Positions 5,405 through 49,286 of a stretch of 64,000 bases of DNA are shown one piece after another (the first letter of the stretch is position 1; the number at the start of each line of letters is the position of its first letter). Position numbers and translations under genes: made by a program. Source of the stretch: Draconibacterium orientale (GTDB lineage Bacteria > Bacteroidota > Bacteroidia > Bacteroidales > Prolixibacteraceae); contig NZ_CP007451.1 of NCBI RefSeq assembly GCF_000626635.1, positions 496,001 to 560,000 of the forward strand, written 5' to 3'. Under the pieces are notes generated by a model, which did not search any database, was not told the origin of the DNA, and worked only from the letters and a program-made list of their open reading frames with translations.

Positions 5405-5674
5405 ATGAAGTTCTTTGTTTACATATTGGAATCGGAAATTGACAATAGTTTTTACATTGGTCAAACAGCAGATTTAGAAGCACGGTTGAAAAAACACAAT
5501 AAAGGTTACAATCGCTCTACCTCTGCAAAAAGACCTTGGAAACTGATATACTCTGAGATTTGCAACTCTCGATCTGAAGCAATGAAACTTGAAAAACAGT
5601 TAAAAGGCTGGAAAAAAAGAGATGCAATTCTTAATTATATAAATAATCATCGGGATGTGGCGCAGTCCGGTTAG
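5405..5674 (+). CDS. Small GIY-YIG (URI) endonuclease-like protein
   Basis: A stand-alone GIY-YIG domain of about 89 residues. The core is FVYILES then SFYIGQTADLEARLKKHN (the Y-I-G strand), with the Arg-containing helix after it, KRPWKLIYSE, and the Glu in EAMKLEKQLKGWKK. ATG codons at 5390 and 5405 are in frame; 5405 puts the first beta strand at the N-terminus as in relatives. This family cuts DNA, but the role of single-domain members is not established. The last eight codons and the stop lie within the tRNA-Pro gene (5651-5725), so the protein C-terminus is encoded by the 5' half of the tRNA. With the tRNA relic at 5365-5385, this suggests the gene entered at a tRNA. Confidence 0.85.
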   Translation: MKFFVYILESEIDNSFYIGQTADLEARLKKHNKGYNRSTSAKRPWKLIYSEICNSRSEAMKLEKQLKGWKKRDAILNYINNHRDVAQSG

Positions 5675-5725
5675 CGTACTGGTCTGGGGGACCAGGGGTC
5701 GCAGGTTCAAATCCTGTCATCCCGA
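5651..5725 (+). tRNA. tRNA-Pro (anticodon GGG)
   Basis: A full cloverleaf can be drawn. The acceptor is CGGGATG/CATCCCG, the D stem GCGC/GCGT with GG in the loop, the anticodon stem CTGGT/ACCAG with loop CTGGGGG (anticodon GGG at 5686-5688), and the T arm GCAGG-TTCAAAT-CCTGT. The discriminator is A at 5725 and no CCA is encoded. The 5' 24 nt overlap the end of the GIY-YIG gene. Confidence 0.93.
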
Positions 5726-14894: not shown

Positions 14895-14984
14895 ATGAAA
14901 CGAGCACAAATAATCTTCACATTACTGAAAATGATTACGGTGCGAGTTCCATACGATACCATAATAAATAAAAAATTTAATCGT
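14895..14984 (+). ncRNA. Structured leader RNA, copy A (before SusC)
   Basis: Strand 1 (14895-14907, ATGAAACGAGCAC) pairs with strand 2 (14940-14952, GTGCGAGTTCCAT). There are Watson-Crick pairs on both sides of a tandem G-A/A-G mismatch and one A-C mismatch. The helix ends 32 nt before the SusC start at 14985. Related elements are at 18210-18313 and 49192-49286. In this copy no stop interrupts the frame from the upstream ATG to SusC, so the leader could be translated as a 30-residue extension. Confidence 0.6.
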
Positions 14985-17900
14985 ATGAAATATCTATATT
15001 TAATCCTGTTGGGACTGCTGACATTTACAACGGCAACATACGCAAAAGGCAACCACAATGCCGACCAGGTGTCTATGGCTCAACAAGACAACATAACAGT
15101 AAAAGGTACAATTGTTGACGAAAGCGGAGAACCGCTTCCGGGAGCAACTATACAACAACAAGGAACTACAAACGGAACAATTACTGATATTGATGGTAAC
15201 TTCTCGCTTTCTGTTCCTGCTGACGCGACTCTTTCAATTTCGTTTATCGGATACAAAAGTATTGAAGTAGCCATTGACGGAAAAACGACACTGGGCAATA
15301 TTGCATTGTTGCCTGATATGATTGGACTTGACCAGGTGGTGGTAGTAGGTTACGGTACACAACGTAAAGTTGACCTTACCGGTTCGGTAGCTGTTGTTGA
15401 CGCTGAAGAGATGAAAAAAGTATCGAACTCAAACATCTCAACAATGCTTCAGGGAAAAGTTTCGGGTGTGCAAATTACATCCGACGGACAACCGGGTGCC
15501 GACCCAACAGTGCGTATTCGTGGTATTGGTTCGTTTGGAAGCACCGCACCTCTTTACGTTGTTGATGGTGTGCCAATGGGAACAACAATCCGCGATTTCT
15601 CGCCAAACGATATCGAAACACTTCAGGTTCTTAAAGATGCATCGGCAGCTGCAATTTACGGTTCGCGTGCTGCAAACGGTGTAGTAATCATCACCACTAA
15701 GCAGGGAAAAAAGAACCAGCCAATGAAAATTGATTACAAAGGTTACGTTGGTATCGACCAGGTTGAAGAAGGCGTTTACAATGTAATGGATGCCTACCAA
15801 TATAGCGAATATATTAACATGGCCTTTGGTAACAGCGATATGGATGTTCCTGCCGGTTATAATACAACAAGCAGTAAATATGTTGATCCGGCACAGGTTA
15901 ACACCGACTGGTTTGAAGAGGCATTTAAAACAGGTATTCGCCAAAACCACAACGTAAACATCTCTGGCGGTGGCGAAAACAATACCTACAACATTGCGCT
16001 CGACTACTACAAACAGGAAGGAACCATGGAGGGTGCAGGCCCTAACTTCGAACGTTATACTGCACGTGTTAATAACACCATGGATGTTAAATTTGTAAAA
16101 ATCAAAACCAACCTGGTTTACAGCCACAGCGACCAGGATAATATGGCGCTGAGTAATGCCAACGAGTATGTACAGGGTTTATACGGGGCACAATATCCGG
16201 TAATGGCATCGGCACTGCTTACTCCACCGAGTATTAAAGCCTACGATGAATCGACCTGGGTGCTCGACGACAAAATTTCTTCAGCATCAGAATATAGTTA
16301 CGACTCATACGGTTATGGTACGTATTACGACGATGTGCACGGCGACTTACGTGTAACCAACCTGTTACTTACCAATAACCTTTTGGAAAGAAACACAGTG
16401 GTTGACCGTGTTGTAGCATCGGGTTCAGCAAATGTTGATCTTATTGACATGGTTGGTGAGGTAAACGAAAACCACAAGTTGAGTTACAACCTTAACTTGT
16501 CGTACAGCAAAACCACTGCAAAAGACTTTACATTTGTTCCGGCTTTTATTCAGAGTACAACCAACTACTTATCAAAAAGCAACGAAAAACTTACACAAGG
16601 CTACCGTAGTTTTAGCGATGCATTGATTGAAAACACCTTAACTTACGATGGTACATTTGGTCGTCATCATGTTAATATGCTTGCCGGTCAAACTTTCCAG
16701 CGCGAGCTTTTCCACACACTTACAGGTACAGGTGTTAACATGCCCGAGCCTTACTTCCTGCAAGTAGGTAACGCTCAGGAAACTTCGGGATACACCCAGG
16801 AAACGGAACACGTACTGGCATCGTACATCGGTCGCGTAAACTACAATTACGACGATAAATACCTGCTTTCGGCAACCGTACGTCGCGATGGTTCAAGTCG
16901 TCTTTCTTCTGACGACCGCTGGGACTGGTTCCCATCGGTGTCGGCAGGTTGGCGTATCGAACGCGAAAACTTCTTCCCGGTTGACGAATCAATCATTAAC
17001 CTGTTAAAAGTGCGCGGTAGTTATGGCGAACTGGGTAACGAAAACATTGGCGAATACCAGTATATGGATATTATGGCAAGAGGCGACTATACTTATAGTT
17101 TCAACAACGACAAGGTAACCGGTTCTGCCATTTCAAACTATGTAAACACTGCAATCCGCTGGGAGAAAAAGAAAACGGTTGACGTTGGTCTAGACCTCGG
17201 CATGTTCAACAACCAGCTGGAATTTACTTTCGACTGGTATAAATCAACATCAGAAGACCTGTTGTACAGTGTAGCTGTACCGGCCAATGCGGGCGCTACA
17301 AACGCAACAGTAACAATGAATGCGGCCACAATGGAAAACTCAGGTTTAGAGTTTCTGGCGGCCTATCACAATCGTCAACACGCGGTTAAGTTCGATCTTT
17401 CTGCCAACTTATCTACCCTCAGCAACAAGGTTACTAAACTGGGCGTTTCGGGCGAACCACGTACCGATGGCTACAGCAGAACAGAAGTTGGCCGCGAAGT
17501 GGGTTCATTTTATGGTTACGTTTACGAGGGCATTTTCCAATCGCAGGAAGAAATTGACACCCGCGTGAATTCAGAAGGCGGATACATTAACCAACCCGGT
17601 GCACAACCTGGTGATGTGGCATACGCCGACCTGAACAACGATGGCGAAATTACCAACGAAGACCAAACGTACCTGGGCAGCGGTTTACCTGATATAAACT
17701 TCGGTTTTAATGCACGTGCCGAGTGGAATGGTTTTGATTTGAGTATTTCAACACATGGTGCTGCAGGATTTAAAGCAGTAGACTTTGTTGGTGTTACTTT
17801 AAGCAGCTCGTATGGCATGCTGAATAAAACAACCGACCTGCTGAATGCCTGGACACCGGAGAATACAAATACCAATGTTCCTCGCGTGGCTTACAAATCA

Positions 17901-18182
17901 ACAGGTTCAATTACCAACGATATGTTTAGTCAGCGTTTTATTCAAGATGCATCGTACCTGAAAATTGCAAATATCGAATTGGGTTACAACTTCCCCGACC
18001 AATGGTTTGGTGGTTATATTCAGAATGTGCGTATGTACGTTTCGGCACAGAATATTGCAACAATTACGAAATACGAAGGTTACAACGTAGATTTTGCCGG
18101 TGGTACATTTACTCCGGGTTACAACTACGCATCGTATCCAACACCACAAACTGTAATGTTTGGAGTACACTTGTCATTCTAA
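14985..18182 (+). CDS. SusC-like TonB-dependent transporter (arabinan)
   Basis: An outer-membrane transporter of about 1065 residues. The ATG at 14985 is chosen because it begins a canonical signal peptide (MKYLYLILLGLLTFTTATYA). An in-frame ATG at 14895 would add 30 residues that belong to the conserved leader RNA. A carboxypeptidase-D-like domain follows (VKGTIVDESGEPLPGATI), then the TonB-box region with VVVVGYGTQRKVDLTG, the plug (VRIRGIGSFGSTAPLYVVDG, DASAAAIYGSRAANGVV) and a long beta barrel ending in VMFGVHLSF with the terminal Phe. With the SusD lipoprotein downstream it would import arabinan oligosaccharides into the periplasm using TonB energy. Confidence 0.96.
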   Translation: MKYLYLILLGLLTFTTATYAKGNHNADQVSMAQQDNITVKGTIVDESGEPLPGATIQQQGTTNGTITDIDGNFSLSVPADATLSISFIGYKSIEVAIDGKTTLGNIALLPDMIGLDQVVVVGYGTQRKVDLTGSVAVVDAEEMKKVSNSNISTMLQGKVSGVQITSDGQPGADPTVRIRGIGSFGSTAPLYVVDGVPMGTTIRDFSPNDIETLQVLKDASAAAIYGSRAANGVVIITTKQGKKNQPMKIDYKGYVGIDQVEEGVYNVMDAYQYSEYINMAFGNSDMDVPAGYNTTSSKYVDPAQVNTDWFEEAFKTGIRQNHNVNISGGGENNTYNIALDYYKQEGTMEGAGPNFERYTARVNNTMDVKFVKIKTNLVYSHSDQDNMALSNANEYVQGLYGAQYPVMASALLTPPSIKAYDESTWVLDDKISSASEYSYDSYGYGTYYDDVHGDLRVTNLLLTNNLLERNTVVDRVVASGSANVDLIDMVGEVNENHKLSYNLNLSYSKTTAKDFTFVPAFIQSTTNYLSKSNEKLTQGYRSFSDALIENTLTYDGTFGRHHVNMLAGQTFQRELFHTLTGTGVNMPEPYFLQVGNAQETSGYTQETEHVLASYIGRVNYNYDDKYLLSATVRRDGSSRLSSDDRWDWFPSVSAGWRIERENFFPVDESIINLLKVRGSYGELGNENIGEYQYMDIMARGDYTYSFNNDKVTGSAISNYVNTAIRWEKKKTVDVGLDLGMFNNQLEFTFDWYKSTSEDLLYSVAVPANAGATNATVTMNAATMENSGLEFLAAYHNRQHAVKFDLSANLSTLSNKVTKLGVSGEPRTDGYSRTEVGREVGSFYGYVYEGIFQSQEEIDTRVNSEGGYINQPGAQPGDVAYADLNNDGEITNEDQTYLGSGLPDINFGFNARAEWNGFDLSISTHGAAGFKAVDFVGVTLSSSYGMLNKTTDLLNAWTPENTNTNVPRVAYKSTGSITNDMFSQRFIQDASYLKIANIELGYNFPDQWFGGYIQNVRMYVSAQNIATITKYEGYNVDFAGGTFTPGYNYASYPTPQTVMFGVHLSF

Positions 18183-18209: not shown

Positions 18210-18313
18210 ATGAAACGAGCATGAGTCTGCCAGCTGGCGGATCACACATAAGCGAATCAGTAAAATCATGCGAGTTTCGTCTTATACCTTAGAAAACGAA
18301 CAATTTTAATAAG
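18210..18313 (+). ncRNA. Structured leader RNA, copy B (between SusC and SusD)
   Basis: Strand 1 (18210-18224, ATGAAACGAGCATGA) pairs with strand 2 (18266-18280, TCATGCGAGTTTCGT). Every position pairs except a central tandem G-A/A-G mismatch, counting one T-G wobble. The 41-nt loop holds the palindrome GCCAGCTGGC (18229-18238). The helix ends 33 nt before the SusD ATG. Two mini-ORFs are present: MKRA-stop at 18210-18224 and MRVSSYTLENEQF-stop at 18268-18309, which ends 4 nt before SusD. Confidence 0.65.
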
Positions 18314-20068
18314 ATGAAAAACATATATAAAATTCTAATAGTATTGGCACTCGTTGGAGGCTTTGCTTCCTGTAACGATGAACTGGAGATTACAAATCCG
18401 AATAACCAAACTACTTTTGATTTTGGTGATTCAGAATCTGAACTTCAGGAAGCTATTATTGCGTGTTACAACCGCATACGCCTTGAAGGAACATTTGCCC
18501 GCGTTGGTTACACCATGGATGCCGTACGTGGCGACGAGGTATGGAACTCTTCCCAACAGTGGTATTTAGAAGCCGACAACCTGAATGGCCCGGCAACATT
18601 CTTTATGGCAGAATGGCCATGGCGCGATTTGTACCATGTGGTAAACCGCACCAACTTTGTATTATCGAAAGTTGACGATGTTGACCTATCGCAGGATGCG
18701 TATAACCAAATTGCCGGACAAGCTTTGTTCCTGCGCTCTTTGGCCTACTATCAACTGACTACCTATTACCAAACGGTTCCGTTGATTACTGATTATGCAT
18801 CGTATGCCGACATTAACACCATGTATGCATCAAATAATACGCAAGACGAAGTGTTGGATCAAATTGAAGCCGACCTCACTTCAGCCATGCAAATGTTGCC
18901 ATCGCGCGACGAAGGTGGCGAATGGGCCGGAGGTCGTGCAACATGCGGTGCTGCAGCCGGATATTTGGCGCGCACCTTAATGTTCCGTCATAAGTTTGAA
19001 GAAGCTTATTCGGTACTGAAAGACATTATTGCCGGTAAATACGGAACGTATGCGCTTACTGCCGATTTTGGCGACAACTTCAGAGAAGACACAGAAAACA
19101 ACTCGGAAAGTCTTTTCGAAGTTCAGTTTTTAGACTACGGAACAGGCGGCGTTGACGAAGAATGGACTCCGGTAAATATTAGCTCCGAAGCCACTCAGGG
19201 ACATGCCGTTGAAAGCAACTATGCTTCGCAGGAATTGGGTAGCTGGGGCGACCTTGCAGGTTCTCCATGGTTGTACAACCTGTATAAAAAAGAGAACAGT
19301 ACCGATGGTCGTTTAGATCCTCGACTGTATTGGACACTGGTAACCTTCGAACCTGAATATGGTACTTACACCGGACTGAAAACAGCAGCTTACCCTGATG
19401 GCGATCCACGCAGTAACACGATTTACCAGCAGGAGATTACAAAAACACCGTTATCGAACAATGCACAGGGAGGTATTTCAATCGCCAAATTCACCAACGC
19501 GCGAAACAATATTTATGAATCGATTACCAATGGATTGCATTGTGGGGTAAACATTCGGCTTATGCGTTACAGCGATGTGCTGCTGCGTGCAGCCGAGTGC
19601 GAAAACGAAATTAATGGCCCAACACAAACGGCTATCGATTACATAAACGAAGTACGTCGCCGTGTAGCGCTCGAAGATCTTAAGCTTTCTGATTTCCCGT
19701 CGGCTGATGCACTTTTCGAACAAATTGCAAATGTTGAACGTCCGAAAGAGTTTGGTTGCGAAAACGGACGTGGTATCGACCTGCTGCGCTGGGGATTCTT
19801 TTACGATGCTGATCGGTTAAACCAGATAACCGAACATGCGTATTATGTGCTCGACGGCACAGCCAATACCGATGAGCTTACTGCTGAAACTGCAAGCGCT
19901 TCATCGTTTCAGTACTTCTACAAGGGACATGAGTATTTCCCGATTTATCAGAACACGCTAAATGCCAACCCTAACCTTGTAGGAAACTCGGCAAACAAAA
20001 ACGAAGATAACGGACCTGCCTTCTTTGAAAAAGGTTACACGGTTCGTCCTGTGGTAGATCTCGACTAA
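18314..20068 (+). CDS. SusD-like glycan-binding lipoprotein (arabinan)
   Basis: 584 residues. The lipoprotein signal MKNIYKILIVLALVGGFASC puts it on the outer surface as the lid of the SusC at 14985. The N-terminal SusD/RagB TPR-type helices include ELQEAIIACYNRI and the motif FLRSLAYYQLTTYYQTVPL (about residues 137-155). The C-terminal region has IRLMRYSDVLLRAAECENEI, followed by INEVRRRV and the ERPKEFGCENGRGIDLLRWG segment typical of the family. The gene is separated from SusC by the structured leader and from the next GH43 by a hairpin at 20092-20124, either of which could set its dose relative to neighbours. Confidence 0.95.
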   Translation: MKNIYKILIVLALVGGFASCNDELEITNPNNQTTFDFGDSESELQEAIIACYNRIRLEGTFARVGYTMDAVRGDEVWNSSQQWYLEADNLNGPATFFMAEWPWRDLYHVVNRTNFVLSKVDDVDLSQDAYNQIAGQALFLRSLAYYQLTTYYQTVPLITDYASYADINTMYASNNTQDEVLDQIEADLTSAMQMLPSRDEGGEWAGGRATCGAAAGYLARTLMFRHKFEEAYSVLKDIIAGKYGTYALTADFGDNFREDTENNSESLFEVQFLDYGTGGVDEEWTPVNISSEATQGHAVESNYASQELGSWGDLAGSPWLYNLYKKENSTDGRLDPRLYWTLVTFEPEYGTYTGLKTAAYPDGDPRSNTIYQQEITKTPLSNNAQGGISIAKFTNARNNIYESITNGLHCGVNIRLMRYSDVLLRAAECENEINGPTQTAIDYINEVRRRVALEDLKLSDFPSADALFEQIANVERPKEFGCENGRGIDLLRWGFFYDADRLNQITEHAYYVLDGTANTDELTAETASASSFQYFYKGHEYFPIYQNTLNANPNLVGNSANKNEDNGPAFFEKGYTVRPVVDLD

Positions 20069-46344: not shown

Positions 46345-49191
46345 TTAGAATGTGGCCTTTAAACCAATGTTAAAGAATCGCGTTTGCGGAGCACTGTCGA
46401 ATTCCAGTTCCAGGATATCTTTTTCCTTTGAAATGGTTAACAGGTCGGCTCCACTTACGTATGTCGAGATGCTTTCGAACACACTGTTTTGAATCAGGCT
46501 TTGTGGCAAATCATAAGTGATTTGTACTTTCGCCAGGTTAAAACGATCGGTTTTGTACATCCAGAAATCAGAGTTACGGAAATTATTACTTCCGTTCGTT
46601 GTTGTTAATCGCGGATAAGTAGCTGTAGCTTTTGTTCCTTCTGTCCAACGATCGAGCACTACTTCCGAGTATTTTCTTTCGCCGTAAACCCAGTGGTACG
46701 CGTCGTTTTTAAAGGCATAAGCGCCATAATTTCCGGTACCTAAAGCAAAGAAGGTAAAGCCTTTGTATTTAGCTGTAAAGTTTACACCCAAAGTAAGCGG
46801 AGCTCCACTCCATCCGGCGCGGCCAAGGTATACTTCATCTTTTTCATCGATTTGACCGTCATTGTTTTGATCCACATATTTAATGTCGCCGGGTTTAACC
46901 TCACCACCAAATTTTTGCTCAGGAGAACTGGCTACTTCTTCGGCACTCTGGAATAAGCCTGCGCTTTCCAGACCCCAAAGTCCGTCGATGGCAGTTCCTT
47001 CGCGGTACAGGTAATCGTACTCGTAATTTTCATCACGTTGAGTAGCTTCGGTGGTATAATAAATACCAGAAACACCCAAGCTAAGATCTACTTCGCCAAC
47101 CTGCTTGTTTACGTTCGCGCTAAAGTCGAATCCTACGCGTTTATCGTTGTTGAAGTTAACAGTTGGAATAAATGAAGCCTCAGGCCACCAGGTAAAGAAA
47201 TAATTCGGGTAAATGGTTGACGGTTCGATAGGCAATCCTTCGGTAGAATTGATAAAGAACGAGGCATTAACTGTTAAAAGTTTTTCCCAAAGCGAGGCAT
47301 TTAAAGTAGCCGAAATTTCTTTGCGTTTTACAAAGTCGAGTTCCTCATTTCCGCCTCGTTTCGAGTTGGTTGAACGTTCCGATGCACCATCGTACCATCC
47401 CCACCATGCACCATCAGCCTGATCGTAAGTGGCTTCGTACATGTAAAAGTCTTCAATGTCGAGGTCTGAATTCAGGATACTTCCCGATAGGTTCAGGCTT
47501 AATTCATCAACTACCGATGAGTTGGCCATAAAATCCTCTTCACTGATTTTCCATCCTAAACTCACTGTTGGCGACAGTGCCTGACGGTTTCCTTTGGGCA
47601 GTTTTGCCGAATGAATTACCGATGCACTAAAATCGGCATAGTACTTATTCTTGTAGTTGTAAGCCAGTTGCAAACCGGCATTTGCACTACTGGTGCGGTG
47701 ATACTGACCAGAGTTTGTAATTTGATAACCCGAGGCAATTAACATCGCATTCAGGTTATGGTCGGCATTTATCGTTTTGTCGTAGGTAAAGTATCCCGAG
47801 AACGCAATTGTTTGATTATTGGTACTTCCCCCTACATTTTGCACACCCGGATTTTCATCGTTACCTTCCTTCGCCAGTGAGGCAATTACATCGGCACCGT
47901 TGTAATCGTACCAGCTTGGTATATATACCGCATACGTATTATTATACGATGTGCTGTACGAAGTAGCATAATCAACAGCGAACTGTGTGTGAAATTTTAA
48001 ACCTTCAGTAATACCTTTCAGATCGAAATCCAAACCGGTATCAAACTGAAACTGTCGGCTTGTCCATTTGCTGTAACCACCTGCATAATAATCTGCAAAT
48101 ACATTGGTACGGTCTAACTGAGAACCACCCAGGAAATAACGGCCACCGATAATGTTTGCACTTCCGTTTACCAAATTCAACGATTGCTGATCGTTTGGAT
48201 CAATAAAGTCGAGAGGAATTAACGGAGCAATACGGTTAGGACGTAGTGTAGAAGCAGCAGTCCAGTAATTGCCGTCTTCTTCGCTCGAATTTGCACTTCT
48301 TGCATTGTAGAAGGTTGCATTGGTATTGATGTAGGCACTGATAAAATCATTCAGATTCAAATCGATGTTACCGCGGATATTCAGGCGGTCGGTAAAATTA
48401 TCAGCAGCTTCGCCAAAGTCGAAAACATCGCCCTGACGGTAGTAGCCAATATTGGTGTAAAACTTAGCTCGTTCGTTACCACCTAAAATTTCGGTAGAAA
48501 CGTCGGTACGGTTGTAGTACGACTTTAAATAATCTGATGAATAGAAATCCACATTCGGGTAACGGTATGGATTGCTTCCCGATGCGTGGTGGTAAATATC
48601 TTCATCGCTGTACAAAGCCGTCTGTCCATCATTTACACGTGCTTCGTTATACAAGCTCATGTACTGTGCCGATCCTAAATAAGAAGGATTGCTTTTTGAT
48701 ACATGAAAACCCGTGTTGGCGCGCACATTAATTTCAAGCGGTGTGTTTTTACCACGTTTGGTAGTAATTAAAATGGCACCTTTTGCTGCACGGCTACCAT
48801 AAAGTACCACTGCTGCCGCCGATTTCAGGAATGTAATCTGCTCAATTTCAGTAGGCAGCACATTGTTGGCCGCACGCGGCACTCCGTCAACCAGCACCAG
48901 GTAGTCGCCCATGCCCCACAGTGCATTACCGGTGAAACCACCAATGTAGCCCTGCATATTGTCTAAACTATAGGTATTATAGTTCTTTTTGGTTAATTCT
49001 TCGAGATCGACCACCGAAACACCACCCAGAATGTCGCTTTGAGCTACCTTACGATAAGGAACCTGCACTAATGGATCGTCGGTTATAATGATCGTATCCG
49101 TTTCATTTCCTGCCGGAGTTTGCGCGTTCATCAAAAACGGAACAACTGCAAACAGGGCAAATAAAATGAATCTCTTTTGTATATGTTTCAT
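46345..49191 (-). CDS. SusC-like transporter without carboxypeptidase-like N-domain (XusC-like)
   Basis: About 948 residues from the ATG at 49191, which starts a canonical signal peptide (MKHIQKRFILFALFAVVPFL). The open frame starts at 49275, but those 28 codons are the conserved leader RNA. Unlike the other two SusC proteins it has no carboxypeptidase-D-like repeat. After NAQTPAGNETDTIIITDD it goes directly to the plug (GGVSVVDLEELTKKNY, YLVLVDGVPRAANNV, SAAAVVLYGSRAAKGAILIT). The barrel ends FNIGLKATF. It is the second transporter of a tandem pair, as in Prevotella Xus loci. Preceded by leader copy C. Confidence 0.93.
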   Translation of the reverse strand: MKHIQKRFILFALFAVVPFLMNAQTPAGNETDTIIITDDPLVQVPYRKVAQSDILGGVSVVDLEELTKKNYNTYSLDNMQGYIGGFTGNALWGMGDYLVLVDGVPRAANNVLPTEIEQITFLKSAAAVVLYGSRAAKGAILITTKRGKNTPLEINVRANTGFHVSKSNPSYLGSAQYMSLYNEARVNDGQTALYSDEDIYHHASGSNPYRYPNVDFYSSDYLKSYYNRTDVSTEILGGNERAKFYTNIGYYRQGDVFDFGEAADNFTDRLNIRGNIDLNLNDFISAYINTNATFYNARSANSSEEDGNYWTAASTLRPNRIAPLIPLDFIDPNDQQSLNLVNGSANIIGGRYFLGGSQLDRTNVFADYYAGGYSKWTSRQFQFDTGLDFDLKGITEGLKFHTQFAVDYATSYSTSYNNTYAVYIPSWYDYNGADVIASLAKEGNDENPGVQNVGGSTNNQTIAFSGYFTYDKTINADHNLNAMLIASGYQITNSGQYHRTSSANAGLQLAYNYKNKYYADFSASVIHSAKLPKGNRQALSPTVSLGWKISEEDFMANSSVVDELSLNLSGSILNSDLDIEDFYMYEATYDQADGAWWGWYDGASERSTNSKRGGNEELDFVKRKEISATLNASLWEKLLTVNASFFINSTEGLPIEPSTIYPNYFFTWWPEASFIPTVNFNNDKRVGFDFSANVNKQVGEVDLSLGVSGIYYTTEATQRDENYEYDYLYREGTAIDGLWGLESAGLFQSAEEVASSPEQKFGGEVKPGDIKYVDQNNDGQIDEKDEVYLGRAGWSGAPLTLGVNFTAKYKGFTFFALGTGNYGAYAFKNDAYHWVYGERKYSEVVLDRWTEGTKATATYPRLTTTNGSNNFRNSDFWMYKTDRFNLAKVQITYDLPQSLIQNSVFESISTYVSGADLLTISKEKDILELEFDSAPQTRFFNIGLKATF

Positions 49192-49286
49192 CTTATTAAT
49201 ATTGTTAATTCTTAACTGTATAAGATGTAACTCCCATGATTTTAATCGTATGTCAACGTGGCCGGATTTTGTCATGGTCGTTTCAT
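49192..49286 (-). ncRNA. Structured leader RNA, copy C (before second SusC)
   Basis: Strand 1 (49286-49272, ATGAAACGACCATGA on the minus strand) pairs with strand 2 (49239-49225, TCATGGGAGTTACAT). It has the same tandem G-A/A-G mismatch and one A-A mismatch. Relative to copy B one pair has changed from G-C to C-G on both strands. The helix ends 33 nt before the SusC start. Mini-ORFs are MKRP-stop (49286-49272) and MGVTSYTVKN-stop (49237-49205). From strand 2 to the start codon it is about 75% identical to copy B. Confidence 0.65.

Follow-up and report, generated by a model that had tools for sequence, protein, structure and literature searches.

A folded element inserted at ATGAA start codons in Draconibacterium orientale and other Bacteroidota, and its probable mobility

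Three copies of the element in the window

The window, i.e., the whole stretch of 64,000 nucleotides of Draconibacterium orientale DNA that was analysed (contig NZ_CP007451.1, positions 496,001 to 560,000), carries three copies of an element of about 95 nt, which runs from ATGAAAC to a few variable bases (NNNNN) and lies directly before an ATGAA start codon. Copy B (18210..18313, + strand; 88.2 bits with our covariance model R1) lies directly before the susD start codon (18314), with the Pfam domain SusD_RagB downstream. Its first helix, P1, is formed by ATGAAAC-GA-GCATGA (18210..18224, +), whose ATG opens a four-codon uORF (MKRA*), and TCATGC-GA-GTT-T-CGT (18266..18280, +). The second helix, P2, consists of CGTCTTAT (18278..18285, +) and ATAAGATG (18309..18316, +), the latter including the susD start codon; the CGT is common to P1 and P2, and P2 is absent from the MFE fold of this copy. 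Within the P1 loop lies a palindrome, TCTGCCAG and CTGGCGGA (18226..18241, +), which is called REP-like for its resemblance. Copy A (14895..14984, +; 90 nt) directly precedes the ATG of susC (14985), in frame with this gene and open into it, and its P2 strands are CATACGAT (14950..14957, +) and ATCGTATG (14980..14987, +), the second including the start codon. Copy C (49192..49286, -) precedes the start codon at 49191-49189 of a second gene, which was termed susC-like in the preliminary description and gave no Pfam match at 1e-6. Its P2 pairs CATCTTAT (49220..49227, -) with ATAAGATG (49189..49196, -), again including the start codon.

The preliminary description had reported the P1 helix with a central 5'-GA/GA-5' tandem mismatch at 18210-18224/18266-18280 (+), 14895 (+) and 49286 (-), and all three were found as described. 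Likewise, the spacing from helix to start codon is 33 nt (18314), 32 nt (14985) and 33 nt (49191), and the G-C/C-G and T-A/C-G exchanges occur among the copies as it had stated. It had overlooked P2 with the start codon, the ATGAA at both ends and dozens more copies in the genome. Folding z-scores for the P1 stretches only were -3.5, -3.4 and -1.3, the third not being significant by itself, and -2.6, -3.25 and -2.25 with the start codon included. When eight copies including the start codon were folded freely, P1 as drawn was obtained in seven and P2 in seven; the exceptions are the copy at 18210, which gives P1 only, and L032, which gives P2 with a different left half.

The element misleads ORF calling, as calling by the longest ORF misplaces the starts of both susC genes of the window at or inside the element (ORFs 14895-18182 and 46345-49275). 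Once the element is recognised, these starts are 14985 and 49191. At the gathering score of Rfam 15 the window with its three copies matches only a tRNA gene (5651-5725, +, RF00005), and at E<=5 six loci with copies gave nothing on the element, which agrees with the initial view of an undescribed RNA. Matches elsewhere in these searches were a cobalamin riboswitch downstream of an element-bearing gene (L019:2910-3112, +, 96.8 bits) and a sub-threshold match to Acido-Lenti-1 RNA about 340 nt from a copy (L038:866-911, -, 30.1 bits, gathering score 37).

Architecture of the element and selection on its helices

The 5' part of the element has the layout ATGAAAC-GA-N-CATG, a loop of about 30-45 nt, CATG-N-GA-GTT and one base; the 3' part is composed of CAT with 3-5 variable bases, often ACC, an A/T-rich stretch (e.g., AAACAATTTTAA), the complement of the variable bases and ATGAA. 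P1 is AAC-GA-NCATG paired with CATGN-GA-GTT, and P2 is CATNNN(NN) paired with (NN)NNNATG, which places the start codon of the gene inside the helix in all but one young subfamily. The CAT that closes P1 therefore pairs also with the ATG of the gene. The variable bases of P2 covary, both within the D. orientale genome (ACGAT/ATCGT, ACTAT/ATAGT, CTTAT/ATAAG, CTGTT/AACAG) and in other genera (CTG/CAG, GTG/CAC, ATG/CAT, CCG/CGG).

For 25 copies of this genome, aligned with MAFFT, the covariation score was 0.294 against 0.131 after shuffling, a value reached in none of 500 shuffles, and 91.5% of the cells were paired, compared with a shuffled mean of 80.4% (again 0 of 500). Changes on both sides occurred at nine pairs, and sliding the partner by 1-3 columns destroyed the signal; the count of additional pair types, one of five measures used, showed no excess in this alignment (17 vs. 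18.1 in shuffles). In alignments fitted to the model, 70 copies from further genomes of the genus and the order scored 0.338 vs. 0.122 and 32 copies from the class 0.342 vs. 0.119, both above all 500 shuffles. The two inner pairs of P2 are unsupported in the class set and the innermost pairs of P1 fail often there, while the CAU:AUG pairs of P2 are broken in only one of 204 lettered cells of the genus and order set and one of 95 of the class set. The GA on the 5' side of the tandem mismatch is retained in 135 of 147 copies, and one-base insertions are matched across both sides of P1 (L264, L284). That the tandem G-A is conserved speaks for the sense strand as the one that folds. G-U and A-C cells in the helices number 10/2, 24/8 and 28/7 in alignments A1-A3 and 19/22 in the class-wide alignment A4, and the folded form is likely RNA.

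REP-like palindromes (e.g., CCTGCCTACCGCAGGCAGG, CCGTCAGCTGACGG) are inserted at differing points within copies, once between P1 and P2; they were noted at L023, L027, L036, L037, L039, L046 and L408, besides the one at 18226-18241 of the window.

The helices are also maintained where the element has remained in place. Same-locus copies of two species were compared in eleven disjoint pairs, with shared descent assumed and gaps set aside; they differ at 14 of 374 stem positions and 85 of 629 loop positions (Fisher p 1.5e-7), the two rates being similar in three of the eleven pairs (L011/L180, L171/L202, L179/L197). Over all 17 overlapping pairs the changes amount to 21/578 in stems, 164/954 in loops, 170/834 in the 5' flank and 244/2550 in coding sequence. 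Since stems are kept while loops drift, the fold matters after insertion. The conserved entity might instead be a leader peptide or uORF, either a short one such as MKRA* or one of about 29 codons ending just before the gene: the 5' ATG is retained in 144 of 150 copies and a uORF of 24-35 codons is present in 44 of 150. This reading is very improbable, as a stop follows within five codons in 78 of 150, and in several genera P1 either has T-A in place of C-G, so that the uORF reads MK*, or has gained a T on one side and an A facing it, which shifts the frame, with the stem intact each time. The reading frame is not kept while the stem is, which indicates that the fold and not a peptide is selected in place.

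Distribution, insertion sites and movement

In the genome of D. orientale (5.13 Mb) a pattern search recovered 34 more sites with at most one mismatch to the 5' strand, most of which represent one and the same element. A covariance-model search, of the kind suggested in the preliminary description, revealed many further copies: model R1 has 78 matches at E<=10 in this genome, 65 of them at E<=0.01, and 28 of 41 genomes were positive, the present one included (24 of 25 in the genus, with 3-86 copies each and none in one 2.2-Mb genome, and four of 16 in other families of the order). Within the class at least 38 of 395 genomes and at least 25 of 199 sampled genera carry the element (E<=0.001), and in a sample of the phylum at least 13 of 394 genomes do (E<=0.0001), at least three of them from other classes; these are lower bounds, since ten candidates were scored per genome. 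One exact pattern matched in 78 stretches of named genomes, including Draconibacterium, Sunxiuqinia, Mariniphaga, Proteiniphilum, Petrimonas and Paludibacter, and MAGs labelled Prevotella, Cytophagales, Melioribacteraceae and, in one case, Clostridium. As to a spread by plasmids or phages, a single query copy (L019) had no match at E<=0.01 in either collection; of two exact patterns searched in viral contigs, one matched a single contig of 4.6 kb and the other none.

Among 150 copies, a set that includes copies of the same locus from several species and is thus not one of independent insertions, 128 have an ORF of at least 60 codons immediately behind them, which starts with ATGAAA (113), ATGAAT (10), ATGAGA (3), GTGAAA (1) or ATGAAG (1). 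The remainder comprises six copies flagged as lying before another copy and two more found likewise on reading, one running off the contig, 11 with a short ORF only and two lacking ATGAA. By a slightly stricter criterion, 130 of the 957 other ATGAA sites outside longer ORFs in those loci are start-like, and the window contains 35 intergenic non-start ATGAA sites next to 12 annotated and 11 possible starts. Pfam assigned 16 of 20 downstream proteins, four having no family at 1e-6, and the families include fumarase, ABC transporter, cytidylate kinase, LpxD, aminomethyltransferase and DNA polymerase III beta; further downstream genes are presumably trpD, a glucosamine-6-phosphate deaminase-like gene and others. 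ATGAA flanks the element on both sides, and the left one may be its own and not a target duplication. Of 115 copies, 104 begin with ATGAAAC on the left and 114 show A there at position 6, and the right end reads ATGAAA in 94 and ATGAAT in seven, with A or T at position 6. The element thus seems to bring its own ATGAAAC. Head-to-tail tandem copies share one ATGAAA (L039, L179, L197, G024, G006, G310, G397). Two stacked copies occur at the same locus in three genomes (L177/L183/L188 in G002, G012 and G024), a case of repeated insertion on one start codon.

Comparison with orthologous loci revealed the corresponding empty sites. The SusC of genome G052 is 95% identical to that of the window, and its susC leader ends in acataattaaACT and continues directly with ATGAAATATTTA; its susD leader passes likewise from ggatatgaaa to ATGAAAAATATA. 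At both genes the window has G052-like leaders in which a few bases differ, then the element and then identical gene starts. Copy A is filled in three of eight orthologous operons (G046, G013, G012; empty in G052, G009, G005, G007, G008), copy B is missing in all eight examined, and copy C is missing in all nine orthologues whose start was read, with three others and L258 left out of this count. In front of the fumarase gene, D. orientale has ggaggagtt, the element and ATGAATTATCGC, and in G005 and G002 attaaaggaggagtt is joined to ATGAATTATCGC; G045 and G012 are empty too, which covers four of the six close orthologues. An element-bearing sugar-phosphate gene, which we take to be a relative of glucosamine-6-phosphate deaminase, is empty in the nine closest of 28 other genomes with a match. 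Eight of these nine start with ATGAC and only G012 with ATGAAA, so that an ATGAA before insertion is presumed at this gene. At the same locus, G003 (L147) may hold a decayed copy. For dnaN of another genus, which matched once per genome in 24 of 25 genomes, seven of the 24 genomes read are filled and 17 empty, a strongly diverged copy in G788 being scored as filled. The dnaN product behind a copy matches all three Pfam domains. P2 is CATATG/CATATG in G146 and CATGTG/CACATG in G801, and in G795 both helices remain with a palindrome between them.

The insertion of the element, its exact position, its spread and the selection on its two helices are established by these data. The element is very probably a mobile one which inserts exactly at ATGAA start codons and whose fold is kept after landing; as it ends directly before the ATGAA of the gene, the coding sequence is left intact. 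On the susC tree the copy must have been gained or lost no fewer than four times, and in the match lists of four susC copies the first two places after the copy itself are each time taken by other susC copies. It is therefore likely that copies are also lost exactly, through slippage at the ATGAA repeats or by action of the moving enzyme, or that they recombine with empty alleles.

The selection on RNA structure proposed in the preliminary description is supported as far as the helices are concerned, though they do not form a private leader of susC and susD. An ancestral cis-regulatory leader RNA, setting the ratio of SusC to SusD or sensing a signal, would account for the structure, the conservation at the same locus and those copies which do precede susC or susD genes; it is highly unlikely, given that most orthologous operons are empty with seamless junctions, that downstream genes are diverse and that near-identical copies lie at different loci. 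The element does not correspond to a riboswitch or other cis-regulator either, as its downstream genes are diverse and it is absent from most orthologues read. An effect on translation remains plausible from the position, and the suggested setting of the SusC:SusD ratio is not borne out, because the downstream genes are diverse and the susD copy is without counterpart in the orthologous operons.

The youngest subfamily comprises eight copies in the D. orientale genome, five of them 98-100% and three 80-92% identical, and the five lie before four different ORFs and one further copy. Taken together, the eight are found in front of seven different ORFs and, in one case, at the 5' ATG of a further copy. 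A fragment of the subfamily (L376, 37 nt) is not at a start. These copies carry GTTCCTGAATGT where others have GTTNCAT and lack the start-codon helix, their right-hand hairpin being CTGAATGT/ACATTCAG with the start codon outside. The helix with the start codon is consequently not needed for movement and perhaps also not for tolerance. A survival bias, by which only copies at start sites are retained, can account for part of the position pattern, while the young copies speak for targeting.

An enzyme acting in trans presumably moves the element. A larger copy with an internal ORF was sought and none was found, a right-half match (L379) being a truncated copy. IS200/IS605 transposases use a guide that pairs with two cleavage sites and leave no target duplication. 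Such a single-strand transposase might act on the other strand of the element, which sits 3' of TTCAT, ends in TTTCAT and has a central ATGGAAC able to pair with both. The A at position 6 on the left and A or T on the right is as expected if ATGAAAC is carried along, and the two subterminal hairpins and exact empty sites fit as well. We consider this route unlikely nonetheless: none of 30 Y1 (PF01797) transposase loci from 25 genomes, sampled from a longer list of matches, has the ends of the element, the numbers of Y1 genes and of copies do not track by eye, one IS200-like element in G007 is not at TTCAT as far as its ends are readable, and the conserved tandem G-A points to the sense strand as the folded one. 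The core repeat at both ends, the exact empty sites and the head-to-tail copies with a common core would also suit a tyrosine-type recombinase acting in trans on a small circle that recombines at the shared ATGAA. This is rather improbable, as no inverted binding sites were seen around the core on inspection and the P2 sequence is free to vary if paired, unlike a protein binding site. Equally doubtful is insertion at the RNA level, in which the element would enter translation starts by reverse splicing or in association with the ribosome and then be copied into DNA. In agreement with it, 128 of 150 copies lie at a start codon in sense orientation, seven of the eight full young ones among them, and G-U exceeds A-C in three of four alignments, but survival bias could yield the same position and the flanking leader is native.

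The start codon and comparison with known systems

Translation in Bacteroidetes is reported to rely on unstructured leaders, and a structured start should hinder it (PMC3155529); a start codon paired in P2 is surprising against this background. At the same time dnaN must be translated past its copy. As a tentative proposal, which we hold at somewhat less than even confidence, the folded element would connect the native leader with the start codon that it has displaced: its central CAU would pair either with the AUG of the element or with that of the gene, exposing one start at a time. Opposite A4, 94 of the 123 copies readable among 150 have C, 25 have A and four have T, so that full pairing of the first AUG:CAU is mostly weakened by one mismatch and the CAU is able to pair with either AUG. 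The bridging idea is weakened by the most recently mobile copies, which lack the start-codon helix. In its broadest form the proposal describes a phylum-wide mobile class that targets the translation start, in sense orientation on ATGAA, where two stacked hairpins might hand the ribosome to the displaced start with one CAU toggling two AUGs; we put this forward with similar reserve. If true, the element would behave as a kind of intron for translation initiation and survive even before an essential gene. An element at start codons that spares the genes would be a new lifestyle for selfish DNA in gene-dense genomes, and the natural pairs of filled and empty sites make start selection in Bacteroidota directly testable.

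No description of such an element was found in the literature covered, to which most subscription journals do not belong, and it lacks features by which MITEs (terminal inverted repeats), REPs (an end tag) and Rfam families (a match to the covariance model) are defined. With the MITE-like repeats RUP, CIR, RPE and YPAL/RU-2 the element shares a length below 200 bp, the non-coding, multicopy and non-autonomous character and an RNA able to fold. Most of these repeats are described as having inverted repeats at their termini, TA ends and target duplications (PMC2229807); the element differs in having neither inverted nor TA ends (by reading, ATGAAACGA on one side and ATCGT, ATAAG or AACAG on the other are not inverted) and in its start-codon position. 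REP elements with RAYT transposases are likewise short multicopy hairpin repeats, of 20-40 bp with a GTAG or CGTC tag at one end (PMC3733652). The ends of the element read without such a tag, and REP-like palindromes occur inside some copies instead.

Subterminal hairpins, a short target and exact empty sites characterise the PATE families. The element resembles these IS200/IS605-derived PATEs in its two subterminal hairpins, the specific short target, here the fixed ATGAA (TTCAT), and the exact empty sites. It differs from them in helices that accept any pairing sequence, in the start-codon position and in the 30 transposase loci lacking its ends.

Structured stretches of a message that the ribosome passes are a further parallel. 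In the mRNA of T4 gene 38 a hairpin bridges the ribosome site to its AUG, and mitochondrial byp elements are structured inserts of the message which are bypassed by the ribosome. The element could be likened to them and to translational bypassing in T4 gene 60, where the ribosome passes a structured insert with a matched codon on each side (PMC5009743). In the element the matched codon is the start codon itself, and a bypass there would be hypothetical.
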